Positions 1 through 4,330 of a DNA stretch of 5,439 nucleotides are shown piece by piece (within the stretch, counting starts at the first letter, position 1; each line of letters opens with the position of its first letter). The position numbers and the translations under genes were made by a program. The DNA is from Elusimicrobiota bacterium (lineage in GTDB: Bacteria; CAYTYR01; UBA6262; DAOVJB01): the NCBI GenBank assembly GCA_030673425.1, contig DAOVJB010000097.1:1-5439 (forward strand). Direction: 5' to 3'. A model generated the notes under the pieces. The model was not told where the DNA came from, did not search any database, and saw nothing but the letters and a program-made list of their open reading frames with translations.

Positions 1-7
1 AATGGAT

Positions 8-54
8 AAAGACGTCCTTTTTAGTAGCAGAGTTTGCTAAGAAGGGCGTTTTTT
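8..54 (+). promoter_or_regulatory. Leader hairpin-terminator, copy 1 (putative attenuator of the sigma-like gene)
   Basis: The 5' arm ACGTCC (12-17) pairs with GGGCGT (44-49). The helix extends outward through G11-T50 and the A's at 8-10 with the T's at 51-53. Inside is a second stem, TAGCA (25-29) with TGCTA (35-39), closing a 5-nt loop GAGTT. A run of T's (49-54) follows, as in an intrinsic terminator. It ends 6 nt before the AAGGAG ribosome binding site of the next gene, so a constitutive terminator here would silence that gene; conditional termination is the simplest reading. It matches copies 2 and 3 before glnB; 17 of the 21 bases from position 2 match those from 742. Because the window starts here, it could instead end an upstream gene. 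Confidence 0.65.
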
Positions 55-60
55 TATAAA

Positions 61-66
61 AAGGAG
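61..66 (+). promoter_or_regulatory. Ribosome binding site supporting a GTG start
   Basis: AAGGAG lies 5 nt before the GTG at 72 and decides that start for the sigma-like protein. It follows the T-run of hairpin copy 1 almost directly, so any structure that spreads past the terminator could also affect translation. Confidence 0.7.
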
Positions 67-71
67 AAACT

Positions 72-614
72 GTGGATTTTAATATACTATTTAACAAAAT
101 AGCTCCCAAACTAAAAATGATAGCCAGAAGGCATAACGGTCATGGTTTTTTCATTGATGAGGATGATCTGTATCAGGAAATGTGTATCAGGCTCTGGAAT
201 AATTTTAAGGATGGAGTTCCTGATGGTATAAATGAAGCTTATATAGCGAGAGGTTGCGAATTTCACATATTAAACTATCTCAGGATAAAAAGAGAAAAAG
301 CACACCTTATAAGTTTAGAAGAACCTATAGGTGAAAATGGAACTACACTAAAAGAATTCTTACCGAATAAAGAGGAGTCTTTAGACAGATATATAAACAG
401 AACAATAACTATTGATACTATAAAAAATAACGGCTTTAGCAAAAGGGAAAAGGAGGTTTTTTCACTTTTACTGGAAGGTTATACAGTAAGAGAAGCTGGA
501 AATAAAATGGGTGTTTCTCACGTCATGGTTATCAAGCTTAAACAGAGTATAATCAGGAAGTGGAAGGAAAAAGATAAAATAAAGGTTACCAAAAACAACA
601 GATATTTACTTTAG
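72..614 (+). CDS. Sigma-70 family RNA polymerase sigma factor-like regulator
   Basis: A 180-aa protein with two parts. Residues 5-80 resemble sigma region 2: a helix ending in the acidic motif IDEDDLYQE (28-36) typical of region 2.1-2.2, then a basic stretch around YIARGCEFHILNYLRIKREK (57-76) in the position of regions 2.3-2.4. Residues 122-166 resemble region 4, with SKREKEVFSLLLEGYTVREA (123-142) leading into a helix-turn-helix and a basic recognition helix. There is no region 1.1 or region 3, as in small ECF-type sigma factors. The start is GTG, with AAGGAG at 61-66 spaced 5 nt away. It is preceded by the same kind of hairpin-terminator that precedes glnB, so it probably shares their control and may itself control the nitrogen genes; this is inference. 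The tail (about 167-180) is lysine-rich. The sigma assignment rests on motif resemblance only; a non-sigma HTH regulator is possible. Confidence 0.75.
   Translation: MDFNILFNKIAPKLKMIARRHNGHGFFIDEDDLYQEMCIRLWNNFKDGVPDGINEAYIARGCEFHILNYLRIKREKAHLISLEEPIGENGTTLKEFLPNKEESLDRYINRTITIDTIKNNGFSKREKEVFSLLLEGYTVREAGNKMGVSHVMVIKLKQSIIRKWKEKDKIKVTKNNRYLL
576..594 (+). repeat. 19-nt direct repeat, copy A
   Basis: AAAATAAAGGTTACCAAAA occurs here and again, identical, at 2934-2952. This copy lies inside the last codons of the sigma-like gene (the lysine-rich tail). The core GGTTACC is an interrupted palindrome, GGT-N-ACC. Confidence 0.6.
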
Positions 615-632
615 ATGGTAAGAACATAAGAT
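605..632 (+). promoter_or_regulatory. Weak candidate sigma-70 promoter for the glnB leader
   Basis: TTTACT (605-610) and TAAGAT (627-632) each match 4 of 6 consensus bases with a 16-nt spacer. A start near 640 would make a leader holding the hairpin at 645 and both terminator copies before glnB. In an AT-rich window such matches arise easily by chance, and transcription could equally read through from the sigma-like gene. Confidence 0.2.
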
Positions 633-644
633 AGCAATATTTAA

Positions 645-660
645 GACACGTTGTCGTGTC
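645..660 (+). promoter_or_regulatory. Perfect short hairpin at the start of the glnB leader
   Basis: GACACG (645-650) pairs with CGTGTC (655-660) across the tetraloop TTGT, a 6-bp G+C-rich stem. No U-tract follows, so it is not an intrinsic terminator by itself. It sits 30 nt after the stop of the sigma-like gene and 5 nt before hairpin-terminator copy 2. It may be a leader structural element, a stabilising 3' end of the upstream transcript, or a palindromic operator in DNA. Confidence 0.45.
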
Positions 661-665
661 AAGAC

Positions 666-712
666 AAAGGCGTTCAATATGGCAAGCAATGTAAGCCAGA
701 AGAATGCTTTTT
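666..712 (+). promoter_or_regulatory. Leader hairpin-terminator, copy 2
   Basis: The 5' arm AAAGGCGTTC (666-675) pairs along its whole length with GAATGCTTTT (702-711), with G-U pairs at G669-T708 and G672-T705. An inner stem TGGC (680-683) with GCCA (695-698) closes an 11-nt loop. A T-rich tract follows (708-718). Outer-arm composition and the nested stem match copies 1 and 3, but the inner stem has a different sequence that still pairs. It lies upstream of copy 3 in tandem, well before any start codon. It could end transcription of the sigma-like gene, but its likeness to the two copies placed next to ribosome binding sites argues for a regulated attenuator. Confidence 0.6.
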
Positions 713-716
713 ATTT

Positions 717-739
717 TTAAGTACTAAGCAAGTATTTAA
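717..739 (+). promoter_or_regulatory. Linker hairpin between the two tandem terminators
   Basis: TTAAGTACT (717-725) pairs with AGTATTTAA (731-739) through 9 bp, one of them a G-U pair (G721-T735), around the 5-nt loop AAGCA. It follows the T-tract of copy 2 and ends 8 nt before the paired A's of copy 3. It is AT-rich and may be only a spacer, or a structure that insulates the two elements. Confidence 0.35.
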
Positions 740-747
740 GTATGGGC

Positions 748-800
748 AAAGGCGTCCGTTTTGCTGCCGGGATGGCAGATGAAAATCGGATGCCTTTTTT
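748..800 (+). promoter_or_regulatory. Leader hairpin-terminator, copy 3 (putative glnB attenuator)
   Basis: This is the strongest of the three. GGCGTCCG (751-758) pairs with CGGATGCC (787-794), A's at 748-750 face T's at 795-797, and TTTT (759-762) can pair with AAAA (782-785) around a bulged T786. The inner stem CTGCC (764-768) with GGCAG (774-778) closes the 5-nt loop GGGAT. Six T's (795-800) follow. The result is a near-continuous long hairpin with a U-tract, a textbook intrinsic terminator. It ends 15 nt before the glnB ribosome binding site and cannot serve as the end of an upstream gene without also blocking glnB, so attenuation is likely. In Klebsiella nasF and in Geobacter nitrogen genes, leader terminators are overridden by ANTAR proteins; whether this is related is unknown. 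Confidence 0.75.
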
Positions 801-815
801 ATTTAAGCTAAGAAT

Positions 816-831: not shown

Positions 832-1152
832 ATGAAGAAGATTGAATGTATAATCCGTACTGAAAAATTAAAAGAGTTAGAAGGAGTCTTACGACAGATT
901 GGGGTTGGTGGGATGACAATTACTGAAGTTAAAGGATTTGGGAAGGAGACCACTCGGCCAGATGCTTATTTGATTTTACCTAAAACTAAAGTGGAGATAT
1001 ATGCTACTGACCAGCAGATTGAAGAACTGACCAAAGTAATTATCGATACCTGCTGTACAGGGGAATTGGGAGATGGAAAGATTATCATCTTGCCTGTGGA
1101 GGAGGTGATTCGAATAAGAACTGGTGAGAAGCAGGATGAGGCTATATTTTAA
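832..1152 (+). CDS. PII nitrogen regulator with a shortened T-loop
   Basis: A 106-aa PII signal protein, against about 112 aa for E. coli GlnB. It begins MKKIECIIRTEKL and keeps GGMTITEVKGFG (26-37), the B-loop TGELGDGKI (76-84) and the C-loop RIRTGE (94-99), so trimer fold and ATP/ADP binding are probably retained. The T-loop is different. Between GFG (35-37) and LPK (49-51) there are 11 residues where E. coli has 18. The QKGxxExYRGxxY stretch is gone, including Arg47, which plugs AmtB, and the uridylylated Tyr51. Gln39, a 2-oxoglutarate/Mg ligand in classical PII, is Glu here. It may therefore sense nucleotides without canonical AmtB blocking or uridylylation; this is inference. The amtB ribosome binding site starts right after its stop codon, so the two are cotranscribed. 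The start at 832 follows family length and GGAGG at 816. Confidence 0.9.
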   Translation: MKKIECIIRTEKLKELEGVLRQIGVGGMTITEVKGFGKETTRPDAYLILPKTKVEIYATDQQIEELTKVIIDTCCTGELGDGKIIILPVEEVIRIRTGEKQDEAIF

Positions 1153-1168: not shown

Positions 1169-2536
1169 ATGTTTAATAAAATAGTAAAGATGGCAAAAAC
1201 CATGAGCTTGACTGTTTTAATTATGTTAGCATTGCCTTTATTTGCGTTTGCTGATGAGGCAACCGCAGCAACTAATGCTGTAGCCATTGATACAGTCTGG
1301 GTTTTGGTGGCAGCATTCCTGGTATTTTTTATGCAACCAGGATTTGCAATGGTGGAGACTGGTTTTACCAGGGCTAAAAACGCATCTAATATTTTGATGA
1401 AAAATCTTATGGATTTTAGTATTGGGTCAATTGCCTTCTGGCTAATTGGTTTTGGCATAATGTTTGGTGCGGACAAATTTGGACTTTTTGGCACAAGTGG
1501 GTCTTTCTTAAGTTTTGCTAATCCTTCAACTTCTGAAGGATTATGGCAGTTTGCCTATTGGATGTTTCAGATAGTTTTTGCAGCTACGGCAGCAACTATT
1601 GTTTCAGGAGCAATGGCTGAGAGAACAAGGTTCCCTGCATATTTAATCTATTCATTTTTTATTTGTGCTCTAATCTACCCTGTAGTAGGACATTGGATTT
1701 GGGGTGGAGGATGGCTTGGAGGTAAAGGTATGATAGACTTTGCCGGCTCTACAGTAGTTCACTCAGTTGGTGGTTGGGCAGGTTTGGCCGGGGCGTTACT
1801 GCTTGGGCCAAGGTTAGGTAAATATGCTAAAGATGGTACATCACGGGCTATTCCTGGACATAATATCCCCTTAGCAGCCTTAGGTGTATTTATCCTTTGG
1901 TTTGGATGGTTTGGTTTTAATGCGGGGAGTACTACCTCAGGTACAAACCTAAGTATTGCTACTATTGCAGTAACTACTAATTTAGCAGCTGCTGCAGGAG
2001 CAATCATGGCTATGTTTACTGCCTGGTTTAGGTTTGGAAAACCTGATACCAGTATGGCTTTTAATGGTGTTTTGGCAGGTTTGGTGGCAATAACTGCTCC
2101 CTGCGCAAGTGTCTCTCCTTTAAGTGCAATCATCATTGGAGCAATAGCTGGTGTATTAGTTGTCTTCAGCGTAGAATTTCTTGATAAAGTTTTACATATT
2201 GATGATCCTGTAGGTGCAATATCAGTTCATGGAGTTTGCGGAGCGTTTGGGACCCTTGCAGTAGGACTATTTGCAGAAGCTGCATATGGAAAAGCAAGTG
2301 GAGCAGGAGCTGTTAATGGTCTTTTCTTTGGCGGAGGACTCTCGCAGTTTTTCATCCAATTAATAGGTGTGGTTTCCGTATTCTTGTGGGTATTTGGCTC
2401 AGCATTACTTCTGTTCTACATTATTAAAAAGACTATAGGGCTTAGAGCTTCTGATGAAGAACAATTAAAAGGACTGGATATCACTGAGCACGGGATGGAA
2501 GCTTATTCTGGATTTGAGATATTTACTACAGAATAG
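1169..2536 (+). CDS. amtB: Ammonium transporter AmtB
   Basis: A 455-aa inner-membrane ammonium channel of the Amt/Mep/Rh family, which works as a trimer. Residues 1-28 form a signal peptide: basic start, hydrophobic core LTVLIMLALPLFAFA, cleavage predicted after Ala28. The mature part begins DEATAATN and continues with FMQPGFAMVETGFTRAKN, the first-helix signature of the family. The pore twin histidines are His198 (in STVVHSVGGWAG) and His354 (in GAISVHGVCGAFGT). Asp190, eight residues before the first His, and Trp182 in GGGWLGG match the structural Asp160 and recruitment-site Trp148 of E. coli AmtB. FNAGS carries the pore Phe and Ser. The C-terminal tail after YIIKKTIGLR (LDITEHGMEAYSGFE) is the usual cytoplasmic tail that couples to PII. 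It lies between two PII genes; amtB-glnK pairing is widespread, having one on each side less so. Confidence 0.97.
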   Translation: MFNKIVKMAKTMSLTVLIMLALPLFAFADEATAATNAVAIDTVWVLVAAFLVFFMQPGFAMVETGFTRAKNASNILMKNLMDFSIGSIAFWLIGFGIMFGADKFGLFGTSGSFLSFANPSTSEGLWQFAYWMFQIVFAATAATIVSGAMAERTRFPAYLIYSFFICALIYPVVGHWIWGGGWLGGKGMIDFAGSTVVHSVGGWAGLAGALLLGPRLGKYAKDGTSRAIPGHNIPLAALGVFILWFGWFGFNAGSTTSGTNLSIATIAVTTNLAAAAGAIMAMFTAWFRFGKPDTSMAFNGVLAGLVAITAPCASVSPLSAIIIGAIAGVLVVFSVEFLDKVLHIDDPVGAISVHGVCGAFGTLAVGLFAEAAYGKASGAGAVNGLFFGGGLSQFFIQLIGVVSVFLWVFGSALLLFYIIKKTIGLRASDEEQLKGLDITEHGMEAYSGFEIFTTE

Positions 2537-2592: not shown

Positions 2593-2934
2593 ATGAAACT
2601 GATAATAGCAATGATACAACCCCATAAATTACCTGATGTTAAAAAAGCCTTATATGATGCAGAAGTATGCAAGATGACAGTCTCTAATGCCTTAGGATGT
2701 GGTCAACAAAAAGGCTACACTGAAACTTATAGGGGCGTTATCCATGAGGTAAATCTTCTTAAAAAGGTAAGACTTGAGATAGCAGTCAACGAGGACTTTG
2801 TCAAGTCGACCATTGATGCCATAATAAAAGGTGCTAAAACCGGCAAAATCGGCGATGGTAAAATATTTGTTCTAGATTTACCGGAATGTATAAGAATCAG
2901 GACTGGAGAACGAGATGGGAAAGCAATTGGGTAA
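2593..2934 (+). CDS. glnK: PII nitrogen regulator, GlnK type
   Basis: A 113-aa PII protein of normal length. It keeps the full T-loop [20 protein letters not shown] (35-54), with Gln39 for 2-oxoglutarate/Mg binding and Arg47, which enters the AmtB pore in E. coli GlnK. The B-loop TGKIGDGKI and C-loop [13 protein letters not shown] are intact. Residue 51, the Tyr that GlnD uridylylates in E. coli, is His here, and position 49, the phosphorylated Ser of cyanobacterial PII, is Val. Control by ATP/ADP and 2-oxoglutarate alone is therefore likely; this is inference. GlnK is used because it follows amtB; glnB is an equally valid family name. The ribosome binding site GGAGG lies 7 nt before the ATG. 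It starts 56 nt after amtB and 64 nt before glnA, so a single operon is likely. Confidence 0.93.
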
Positions 2935-2998: not shown

Positions 2999-4330
2999 AT
3001 GGCAAAAAGAACAAAGCAGGATATTCTAAGACTGGTTAAGGAAAACGATGTTAAATTCATCAGGTTATGGTTTACTGATGTTTTGGGACAGGTTAAAAGC
3101 TTCGCTATTACAAATAGCGAATTAGAAGGGGCACTGGAAAACGGTATGGGTTTTGATGGTTCATCAATCACGGGCTATCAGGATATTGAGGAATCAGATA
3201 TGATTGCGATGCCTGACCCTGATACTTTTGCTATACTCCCATGGAGACCAGAACAGAAGGCTGTTGCAAGAATGATCTGTGATATACTCAATCCTGACAG
3301 GACTCCTTATGAAGGAGATCCCCGTTATGTTTTAAAAAGAGCTTTACAAAGAGCAAAAAAGATGGGTTTTGATCATTATTATGTTGGTCCTGAACTTGAG
3401 TATTTCTATTTTAAGAATGACGAGGGTACCCAAGTACTGGATAAGGGAGGATATTTCGATCTCACCACTTTGGATGTTGCAAGTGATCTGAGACGAGAAA
3501 CAGTTTTAGCACTGGAGAAAATGGGTGTAGACATTGAGTATTCACACCATGAAGTTGCTCCATCACAGCATGAAGTTGATATGCGATACAAAGACGCGTT
3601 ACTGATGGCTGATACTGTTATAACCTACAAGGTTGTTGTTAAAGAGATTGCCAATAAATTCGGCGTGTATGCTACATTTATGCCAAAGCCGATATTTGGA
3701 GAGAATGGTTCAGGTATGCATACTCATCAGTCTTTGTTTAAGGGTAATAAAAACGCATTTTTTGACCCTAATTCAAAGGATAATCTGTCAGAAATTGGCC
3801 ATAACTACATTGCTGGACTGCTTAAGCATGCAGAAGAGATATGTTCAATCTTTGCCCAGACAACAAACTCTTATAAGAGACTGGTTCCTGGTTATGAAGC
3901 ACCTGTATATATCGCATGGAGCCGTAGAAACAGAAGCGCGCTGGTCAGAGTTCCATTATATCATCCAGGACAGGAGAAGGCAACACGCTGTGAATTCAGA
4001 GCATGTGACCCGGCATGTAATCCGTATCTTACATTTGCTGTGATGCTTCAAGCCGGATTAAACGGTATAGAAAAAAAATACAAGGTTCCCGATGCCATGG
4101 AGCAGAATTTGTATCATCTTACGGATGCAGAAAGGAAAGAAAAAGGTATACAGACTCTACCGGATAACCTCGGAAATGCCATAAGTATAACCGAAAATAG
4201 TGAACTTGTGAAAAAGACCCTTGGCGATCATATATTCCCCAGGTTTATTAAGCTTAAAAAGAAGGAATGGAATGAGCACAGAATTCAAGTTCCTCAGTAT
4301 GAACTTGACCTATATCTCTCAATTCTCTAA
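2999..4330 (+). CDS. glnA: Glutamine synthetase type I
   Basis: A 443-aa enzyme that makes glutamine from glutamate, ammonium and ATP, normally as a cytosolic dodecamer. Length and sequence match the GSI-alpha group (Bacillus GlnA is 444 aa). The beta-grasp N-terminal domain carries MGFDGSSITGY (50-60), with the Asp-loop that completes the neighbouring active site. Metal ligands are Glu132 and Glu134 in GPELEYF, Glu185 and Glu192 in HHEVAPSQHEVD, and His241 in NGSGMH; MPKPIFG is at 228-234. Arg294 and flap Glu300 lie in NSYKRLVPGYEAP, and Arg312 and Arg330 complete the site. Residue 62 is Asp, where Bacillus GlnA has Arg62, needed for glutamine feedback inhibition. A Tyr (372) is present in NLYHL at the position of the E. 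coli adenylylation site, but no adenylyltransferase is visible. AAGGAGGAG at 2986 precedes the ATG. glnA lies downstream of glnK in the same direction. Confidence 0.97.
   Translation: MAKRTKQDILRLVKENDVKFIRLWFTDVLGQVKSFAITNSELEGALENGMGFDGSSITGYQDIEESDMIAMPDPDTFAILPWRPEQKAVARMICDILNPDRTPYEGDPRYVLKRALQRAKKMGFDHYYVGPELEYFYFKNDEGTQVLDKGGYFDLTTLDVASDLRRETVLALEKMGVDIEYSHHEVAPSQHEVDMRYKDALLMADTVITYKVVVKEIANKFGVYATFMPKPIFGENGSGMHTHQSLFKGNKNAFFDPNSKDNLSEIGHNYIAGLLKHAEEICSIFAQTTNSYKRLVPGYEAPVYIAWSRRNRSALVRVPLYHPGQEKATRCEFRACDPACNPYLTFAVMLQAGLNGIEKKYKVPDAMEQNLYHLTDAERKEKGIQTLPDNLGNAISITENSELVKKTLGDHIFPRFIKLKKKEWNEHRIQVPQYELDLYLSIL

Follow-up and report, generated by a model that had tools for sequence, protein, structure and literature searches.

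Probable ANTAR-type attenuators before a sigma-like gene and nitrogen genes of an Elusimicrobiota bacterium, with a candidate regulon in neighbouring uncultivated phyla

Why should one small cluster of nitrogen genes carry three related hairpin-terminators, and what would let RNA polymerase pass them? The window analysed here is the whole of contig C159 (5439 bases) of an Elusimicrobiota draft genome, G000 (1.32 Mb, 199 contigs, 88% complete); its features are collected in Table 1. An original prediction, made from the letters of the sequence, took the hairpins for attenuators but set the ANTAR class aside and proposed that they might form a distinct RNA class. Our analysis indicates that all three are very probably ANTAR-type transcription attenuators and that the leaders are best described as a variant of that class, in which two textbook details fail: the A at position 1 of the first hexaloop of copy 2, and the linker. 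The mechanism is known; the regulon architecture in uncultivated phyla appears to be new.

Table 1. Genes, terminators, alternative hairpins and promoter-like motif in the window (bracketed letters are hairpin loops)
Feature	Positions	Strand	Support
P2-type hairpin of copy 1, GGAU[AAAGAC]GUCC, loop 8-13 (A1, G4)	4..17	+	RNAfold, R1 partial match
Intrinsic terminator, copy 1, arms 8-17 and 44-53, before sigma-like gene	8..55	+	RNAfold
Sigma-70-family (ECF-like) protein, 180 aa, GTG start	72..614	+	TIGR02937, alignment A5
Promoter-like bipartite motif GGTTACC-N14-TTTACTT; GGTTACC 584-590, TTTACTT 605-611; overlaps 3′ end of sigma-like gene	584..611	+	
P1 hairpin GACAC[GUUGUC]GUGUC, loop 650-655, G4 = 653, position 1 G not A	645..660	+	RNAfold, R1, held-out loop rule
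P2 of copy 2, GAC[AAAGGC]GUU, loop 666-671 (A1, G4), overlaps terminator 5′ arm	663..674	+	R1 alignment
Intrinsic terminator T1, copy 2, arms 666-675 and 702-711, then T-tract	666..718	+	
Weaker second P1-P2 match, AAGUAC[UAAGCAA]GUAUUU and P2′ GGGC[AAAGGC]GUCC, loop 748-753	718..758	+	R1
Intrinsic terminator T2, copy 3, arms 748-757 and 788-797, T-tract, then glnB ribosome binding site	748..802	+	
P-II protein gene (glnB-like), first gene behind T1/T2	832..1152	+	PF00543
amtB ammonium transporter	1169..2536	+	PF00909, TIGR00836
Second P-II gene (glnK-like)	2593..2934	+	PF00543
glnA, type I glutamine synthetase	2999..4330	+	TIGR00653
Fis-like helix-turn-helix protein, 77 aa	4447-4680	+	
NAD+ synthase	4668-	+	

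The two P-II genes flank amtB and share only about 35% mutual identity. The Fis-like protein resembles the C-terminal part of NtrC, and its gene overlaps the start of the NAD+ synthase gene.

All three predicted terminators are present and fold well above shuffled sequence (RNAfold). Copy 1 (1-60) reached -23.7 kcal/mol (z -5.9) and copy 2 (660-720) -16.0 kcal/mol (z -3.4), with none of 200 shuffles as good for either, while copy 3 (742-806) reached -26.6 kcal/mol (z -4.2), matched by one shuffle in 200. Direct reading of the sequence bore out the common 5′ arms (AAAGACGTCC, AAAGGCGTTC, AAAGGCGTCC), the T-tracts and the named pairs A12-T49, C16-G45, T674-A703 and G752-C793; the inner stems differ in sequence and keep their pairing, as had been noticed. 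The claim that copies end close to a ribosome binding site holds for copies 1 and 3, which stop shortly before AAGGAG/GGAGG and a start codon, and not for copy 2. A simple terminator scan overlooked all three hairpins because it allowed only short loops. That the family is a repeat confined to this genome was ruled out: other exact AAAGRCGTYC matches in G000 form no such terminator.

The 5′ arm of each terminator has a second partner. With the 3-6 nt just upstream it forms an alternative, mutually exclusive hexaloop hairpin (P2), in which the bases before the arm complement GTYC and AAAGRC is left as the six-base loop, its first base A (A1) and its fourth G (G4). Likewise, the published ANTAR antiterminator has A1 and G4 in the loops of its two hairpins, and the second of these shares the 5′ side of a terminator (Ramesh et al. 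2012, PMC3369931).

Copy 2 has both hairpins. A covariance model of P1 and P2 from 17 sequences (R1) matched it at 643-676 with 39.9 bits, the element itself being in the R1 seed. Its stems have 5 bp (P1) and 3 bp (P2), where ANTAR targets have at least 3 bp each; both hexaloops carry G4 (G653 and G669), and P2 overlaps the terminator 5′ arm in the correct orientation. A1 is found in P2 and is replaced by G in P1 (GUUGUC). The linker measures 2 nt between full stems, 4 nt counting 3-bp stems and 10 nt between loops, and does not keep to the 5-12 nt range of the E. faecalis eut leaders. In RNAfold a G-C pair inside the P1 loop shrinks it to 4 nt, and P2 of this copy, which is weak alone, stays open without protein. 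For copy 3 the R1 match scored 23.5 bits (E 1.3e-4 in the window); P2′ (744-757) folds alone at -6.2 kcal/mol, and the P1-like loop upstream has U at position 1. The P2-type hairpin of copy 1 folds at -3.2 kcal/mol, and R1 matches it at 3-17 with 9.2 bits, only partially, because the contig starts there and any upstream P1 would be off the contig. A canonical P1 is thus absent from copies 1 and 3, the former being cut by the contig end.

These folds overturn the argument against ANTAR. The loops GAGTT and GGGAT on which it rested are terminator loops; the ANTAR loops lie in the alternative antiterminator fold, where the P2 loops AAAGAC and AAAGGC (A1, G4) together with the P1 loop GUUGUC (G4) give the ANTAR arrangement, and a distinct class is not called for. 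The attenuator reading itself is supported.

Because the left half of P2 lies outside the terminator stem, its ability to pair with the arm counts as separate evidence. In 17 sequences, terminators flanking the sigma-like gene were picked without reference to P2, and 25 of 43 formed a P2 hairpin (at least 4 bp, six-base loop, A or G at position 1, G at position 4). When the upstream 16-nt segments were dealt anew, 4.3 ± 1.8 such hairpins appeared (maximum 10 in 2000 trials), and hexaloop hairpins were seen at 9 of 47 control terminators. A hand-picked P2 set gave G4 in 39 of 39, but it was partly chosen on that letter and its count is biased by selection, so the terminator-first test was relied on. 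In an alignment of P1 and P2 from 17 leaders, 95.8% of cells were paired and 4 of 7 pairs had changed on both sides. The covariation score was 0.288, compared with 0.167 ± 0.025 for shuffled alignments (0 of 500 as high), and slid versions all scored lower. The suspected selection on RNA structure is thus borne out by covariation of P2 across relatives.

The loop rule was examined on a held-out set of 28 sites, fetched by the DNA motif only from other members of the phylum to which G085, an Omnitrophota MAG, belongs; hairpins were chosen by stem and closing pairs. Such a hairpin was found at 25 of the 28 sites and began 12-44 nt past the motif; the first loop base was A in 21 and G in 4 of them, and the fourth was G without exception. 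Among the 8 hairpins of the reversed control, each of the four letters filled the fourth loop position twice. A few first hairpins were P2 rather than P1 (e.g. L168, L178), and the loop rule is valid for both. R1 scored 19 of the 28 sites at E <= 0.01, just downstream of the motif. A covariance-model search of relatives, which the original prediction had proposed, recovered elements in 21 genomes, 1-5 per genome at E <= 1. Two other procedures were rejected: loose dual-hairpin scans over whole loci, in which chance matches dominate and which gave way to the terminator-first and motif-first tests, and a count of P1 loops by the strongest hairpin of any kind, which caught terminators and was replaced by the choice on stem and closing pairs.

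Across relatives, conservation falls on the hexaloops of P1 and P2, with their G4, and not on the inner terminator loops. Variants include seven-base P1 loops, loops that begin with G, short linkers (the distance between P1 and P2 stems runs from 0 to 14 nt or more) and tandem second terminators with P2 only. In the Rfam comparison that had also been suggested, no family matched the window or the relatives above its gathering score.

Elements upstream of nitrogen genes had been predicted for relatives, and they were found there before glnB, amtB, glnA and the sigma-like gene. Strong R1 elements precede genes for amtB, glnA, type III glutamine synthetase, P-II, nifH, beta-barrel porins, GAF-ANTAR proteins and the sigma-like protein, and a Prismane-family protein and an amino-acid permease are also encoded downstream of the element. 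Most of these are of the kinds listed by Ramesh et al. for ANTAR regulons (PMC3369931). At L104, L107, L108 and L117 the P1-P2 element lies before the GAF-ANTAR gene itself, which suggests autoregulation. By inspection, a second terminator follows, or appears to follow, in the window and at L038, L039, L042, L045, L155, L159, L160, L165, L168 and L169. These tandem terminators have their own P2-type hexaloop hairpin, usually without a canonical P1; binding of a single hexaloop by ANTAR dimers would be sufficient for their relief. Such leaders are relevant to the proposal, made in 2022, of one hexaloop as the smallest ANTAR target.

A candidate binding protein is widespread among the relatives. 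Of 20 other genomes that carry the sigma-like gene, 19 encode the ANTAR domain (PF03861; E about 1e-16 to 1e-24), as do 78 of the 82 genomes of the phylum of G085 that have this gene. The 18 aligned ANTAR proteins are GAF-ANTAR proteins of about 235 aa. They align with EutV (6wsh) over the ANTAR domain in a 61-to-61-residue correspondence; if this is ungapped, the EutV RNA contacts R142, K143, K149, E160, Y164, M172 and R175, described by Walshe et al., are kept in most rows of alignment A2, and position 177 is not. At L038 the GAF-ANTAR gene adjoins the sigma-like gene, in the order NAD synthase, glnA, GAF-ANTAR, terminators, sigma-like gene, P1-P2/T1, P2′/T2, glnB, porin-like gene, amtB, glnK. 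No ANTAR domain was found in G000, where GAF domains occur in other proteins only, or in G079, the genome of the closest relative, L039. At L039 a nucleotidyltransferase-like gene (PF12281; 49-840) stands upstream of the sigma-like gene in place of the ANTAR gene. The window begins 7 nt before copy 1; at L038 about 130 nt separate the end of the ANTAR gene from the corresponding element. Since the contig starts just where L038 has this gene, we read its absence from G000 as probably an assembly gap.

Could the hairpins be ordinary intergenic terminators that resemble P1 and P2 by chance, AAAG-GC being a common terminator arm? Terminator arms are often A-rich and then G+C-rich, and hexaloop hairpins turned up at the control terminators too, but the excess of P2 hairpins over redealt segments, the invariant G4 of the held-out loops and the placement before the first genes of nitrogen operons make this explanation extremely improbable. 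A distinct attenuator class, with an unknown RNA-binding protein or ligand acting on the inner terminator loops, would fit the pairing of inner stems that differ in sequence, the lack of an Rfam match and the lack of an ANTAR gene in the genome's own bin. It is nevertheless very improbable: relatives conserve the hexaloops instead of the inner loops, GAF-ANTAR genes are present in nearly all of them and can adjoin the elements, and four such genes themselves stand behind one. It is also improbable, on present evidence, that these are ancestral ANTAR leaders whose protein was lost in the lineage, leaving terminators that now only lower expression constitutively. Such a loss would agree with the missing ANTAR domain in G000 and G079, with the change of A1 to G in P1 and with the weak P2 of copy 2; yet copy 2 still has its P1, P2 and terminator intact (39.9 bits), and the bin is incomplete and fragmented, with a contig end at the critical place. 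We thus keep to the reading of the three copies as ANTAR-type attenuators.

What starts the leader transcripts is a separate matter. The sigma-like protein scored 49.1 bits against TIGR02937 (cutoff 42.9; residues 3-166) and 22.5 bits against Pfam Sigma70_r2, just below the cutoff of 24; the TIGR02937 match gives it the region 2 and region 4 homology of ECF-like sigma-70 factors. Its nearest relatives come from MAGs labelled mostly as Candidatus Omnitrophota, and also as WOR-3, Aerophobetes and others. At L041 and L043 the sigma-like gene lies directly upstream of glnA. Before glnA in the window, a relic-like stretch at 2934-2975, AAAATAAAGGTTACCAAAA...TTAGAACGTCTTTTATTTT, repeats the end of the sigma-like gene (about 576-594); it ends like a terminator 3′ arm, has no TTTACTT, P1 or 5′ arm, and folds no better than shuffles.

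The bipartite motif GGTTACC-N14-TTTACTT lies 33 nt upstream of P1 and is the sole site in G000. With a spacer of 14-17 nt it occurs at 34 sites in the set of 21 genomes, 19 of which have it, and the reversed pattern matched once. Among 285 genomes of the phylum of G085, 61 contain the motif and 5 the reversed pattern. It was present in 56 of 82 genomes with the sigma-like gene versus 5 of 203 without it (Fisher 4e-33, uncorrected for common descent); the corresponding counts, likewise uncorrected for kinship, are 54 of 78 versus 4 of 133 in ANTAR-positive genomes, and 48 of 82 versus 5 of 203 when motif sites within 400 nt of the sigma-like gene are left out. In the sigma-like gene GGTTACC specifies V-T close to the end of the protein, but coding constraint was ruled out as its source because the motif is found with identical spacing away from the gene (L009; 48 genomes). 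At L162 (G243) and L173 (G247) the motif and a P1-P2 element are present and the sigma-like gene was not detected; either these bins are incomplete or the motif has another reader.

Judged from these sequence associations, the motif is probably a promoter recognised by the sigma-like protein. GGTTACC might instead bind a separate regulator beside a housekeeping -10 element, in which case the association with the sigma-like gene would reflect shared ancestry. We consider this possible but doubtful. GGTTACC is a small dyad, the motif occurs in five genomes in which no sigma-like gene was found (two of them, those of L162 and L173, with an element behind it), and the genomes are not independent; however, the fixed 14-nt spacer is compatible with a -35/-10 pair, and the contrast between genomes with and without the sigma-like gene persists among ANTAR-positive ones. 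For a promoter read by the sigma-like protein, we know of no ECF group tied to GGTTACC/TTTACTT or to ANTAR leaders, and none was found in the open-access literature. That literature also gave no published link of the sigma-like factor or the motif to ANTAR leaders, though other journals may hold such work. What appears to go beyond the published work found is thus the way the leaders are tied to a sigma-like factor and to a dedicated promoter-like motif.

Taken together, these elements suggest the following model. By default, the leader RNA would fold into the terminators of copies 1, 2 and 3, leaving the sigma-like gene and glnB-amtB-glnK-glnA off. A GAF-ANTAR protein, presumably activated under nitrogen shortage, would bind the P1 hexaloop and then P2; because P2 uses the 5′ arm of the terminator, the terminator could not form and RNA polymerase would read on. 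Copies 3 and 1, each with its own P2-type hexaloop, would be relieved in the same mode. The bipartite motif is the most likely site from which the leader is transcribed, and we propose that the sigma-like protein reads it. A nitrogen gene would then need both the sigma factor and an active ANTAR protein; and since the sigma-like gene is itself behind such a terminator, the circuit would feed forward. We give a somewhat better than even chance to the wider proposal that Omnitrophota and neighbouring uncultivated phyla have a two-key nitrogen regulon, in which an orphan ECF-like sigma factor reads the motif, a GAF-ANTAR protein relieves one or two tandem terminators, and the sigma gene, sometimes with the ANTAR gene, lies inside the regulon.

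These results extend ANTAR antitermination, studied in few cultivated bacteria, to phyla represented by metagenomes only. R1 and the DNA motif may be used to predict which genes are switched on for nitrogen in such organisms, and the proposed link between sigma factor and ANTAR protein offers a testable model for the control of ammonium uptake, glutamine synthesis and nitrogen fixation in Omnitrophota and their relatives.

The leaders described here resemble those of EutV/eutP in E. faecalis, NasR/nasF in K. oxytoca and AmiR/amiE in P. aeruginosa (PMC3369931, PMC8934654) in having two hexaloop hairpins with G4, P2 within the terminator 5′ arm, conserved closing pairs and nitrogen genes downstream; the relatives' ANTAR proteins, with their predicted RNA-contact residues, are a further likeness. 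They differ from those leaders in that the P1 loop has 6 or 7 nt and begins with A or G, the linker between full stems can shrink to 0-2 nt, and tandem arrangements occur in which the second terminator has a P2 and lacks a canonical P1. In E. faecalis, a linker of 3 nt impaired the leader (PMC3369931). The EutV-RNA structure shows contact to G4, none of a specific kind to A1, and one hexaloop as the smallest site (Walshe et al. 2022, PMC8934654). The ANTAR protein of the relatives is of the GAF type, whereas that of the known system is a response regulator, and its gene was not found in the bin of the window. The sigma-like protein, for its part, falls above the cutoff for ECF-type sigma-70 factors (TIGR02937), and the motif has spacing of the -35/-10 type. 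The closest parallels at the level of regulons are the predicted ANTAR nitrogen regulons of Desulfotomaculum acetoxidans, for which 13 attenuation systems in six transcription units were reported (PMC3369931, Fig. 9), and Pelobacter carbinolicus (PMC3369931): there too, several elements per genome precede P-II, ammonium transporter, glutamine synthetase and nitrogenase genes. In contrast to these, the regulon proposed here belongs to other phyla and also includes a sigma-like gene and a common upstream DNA motif.
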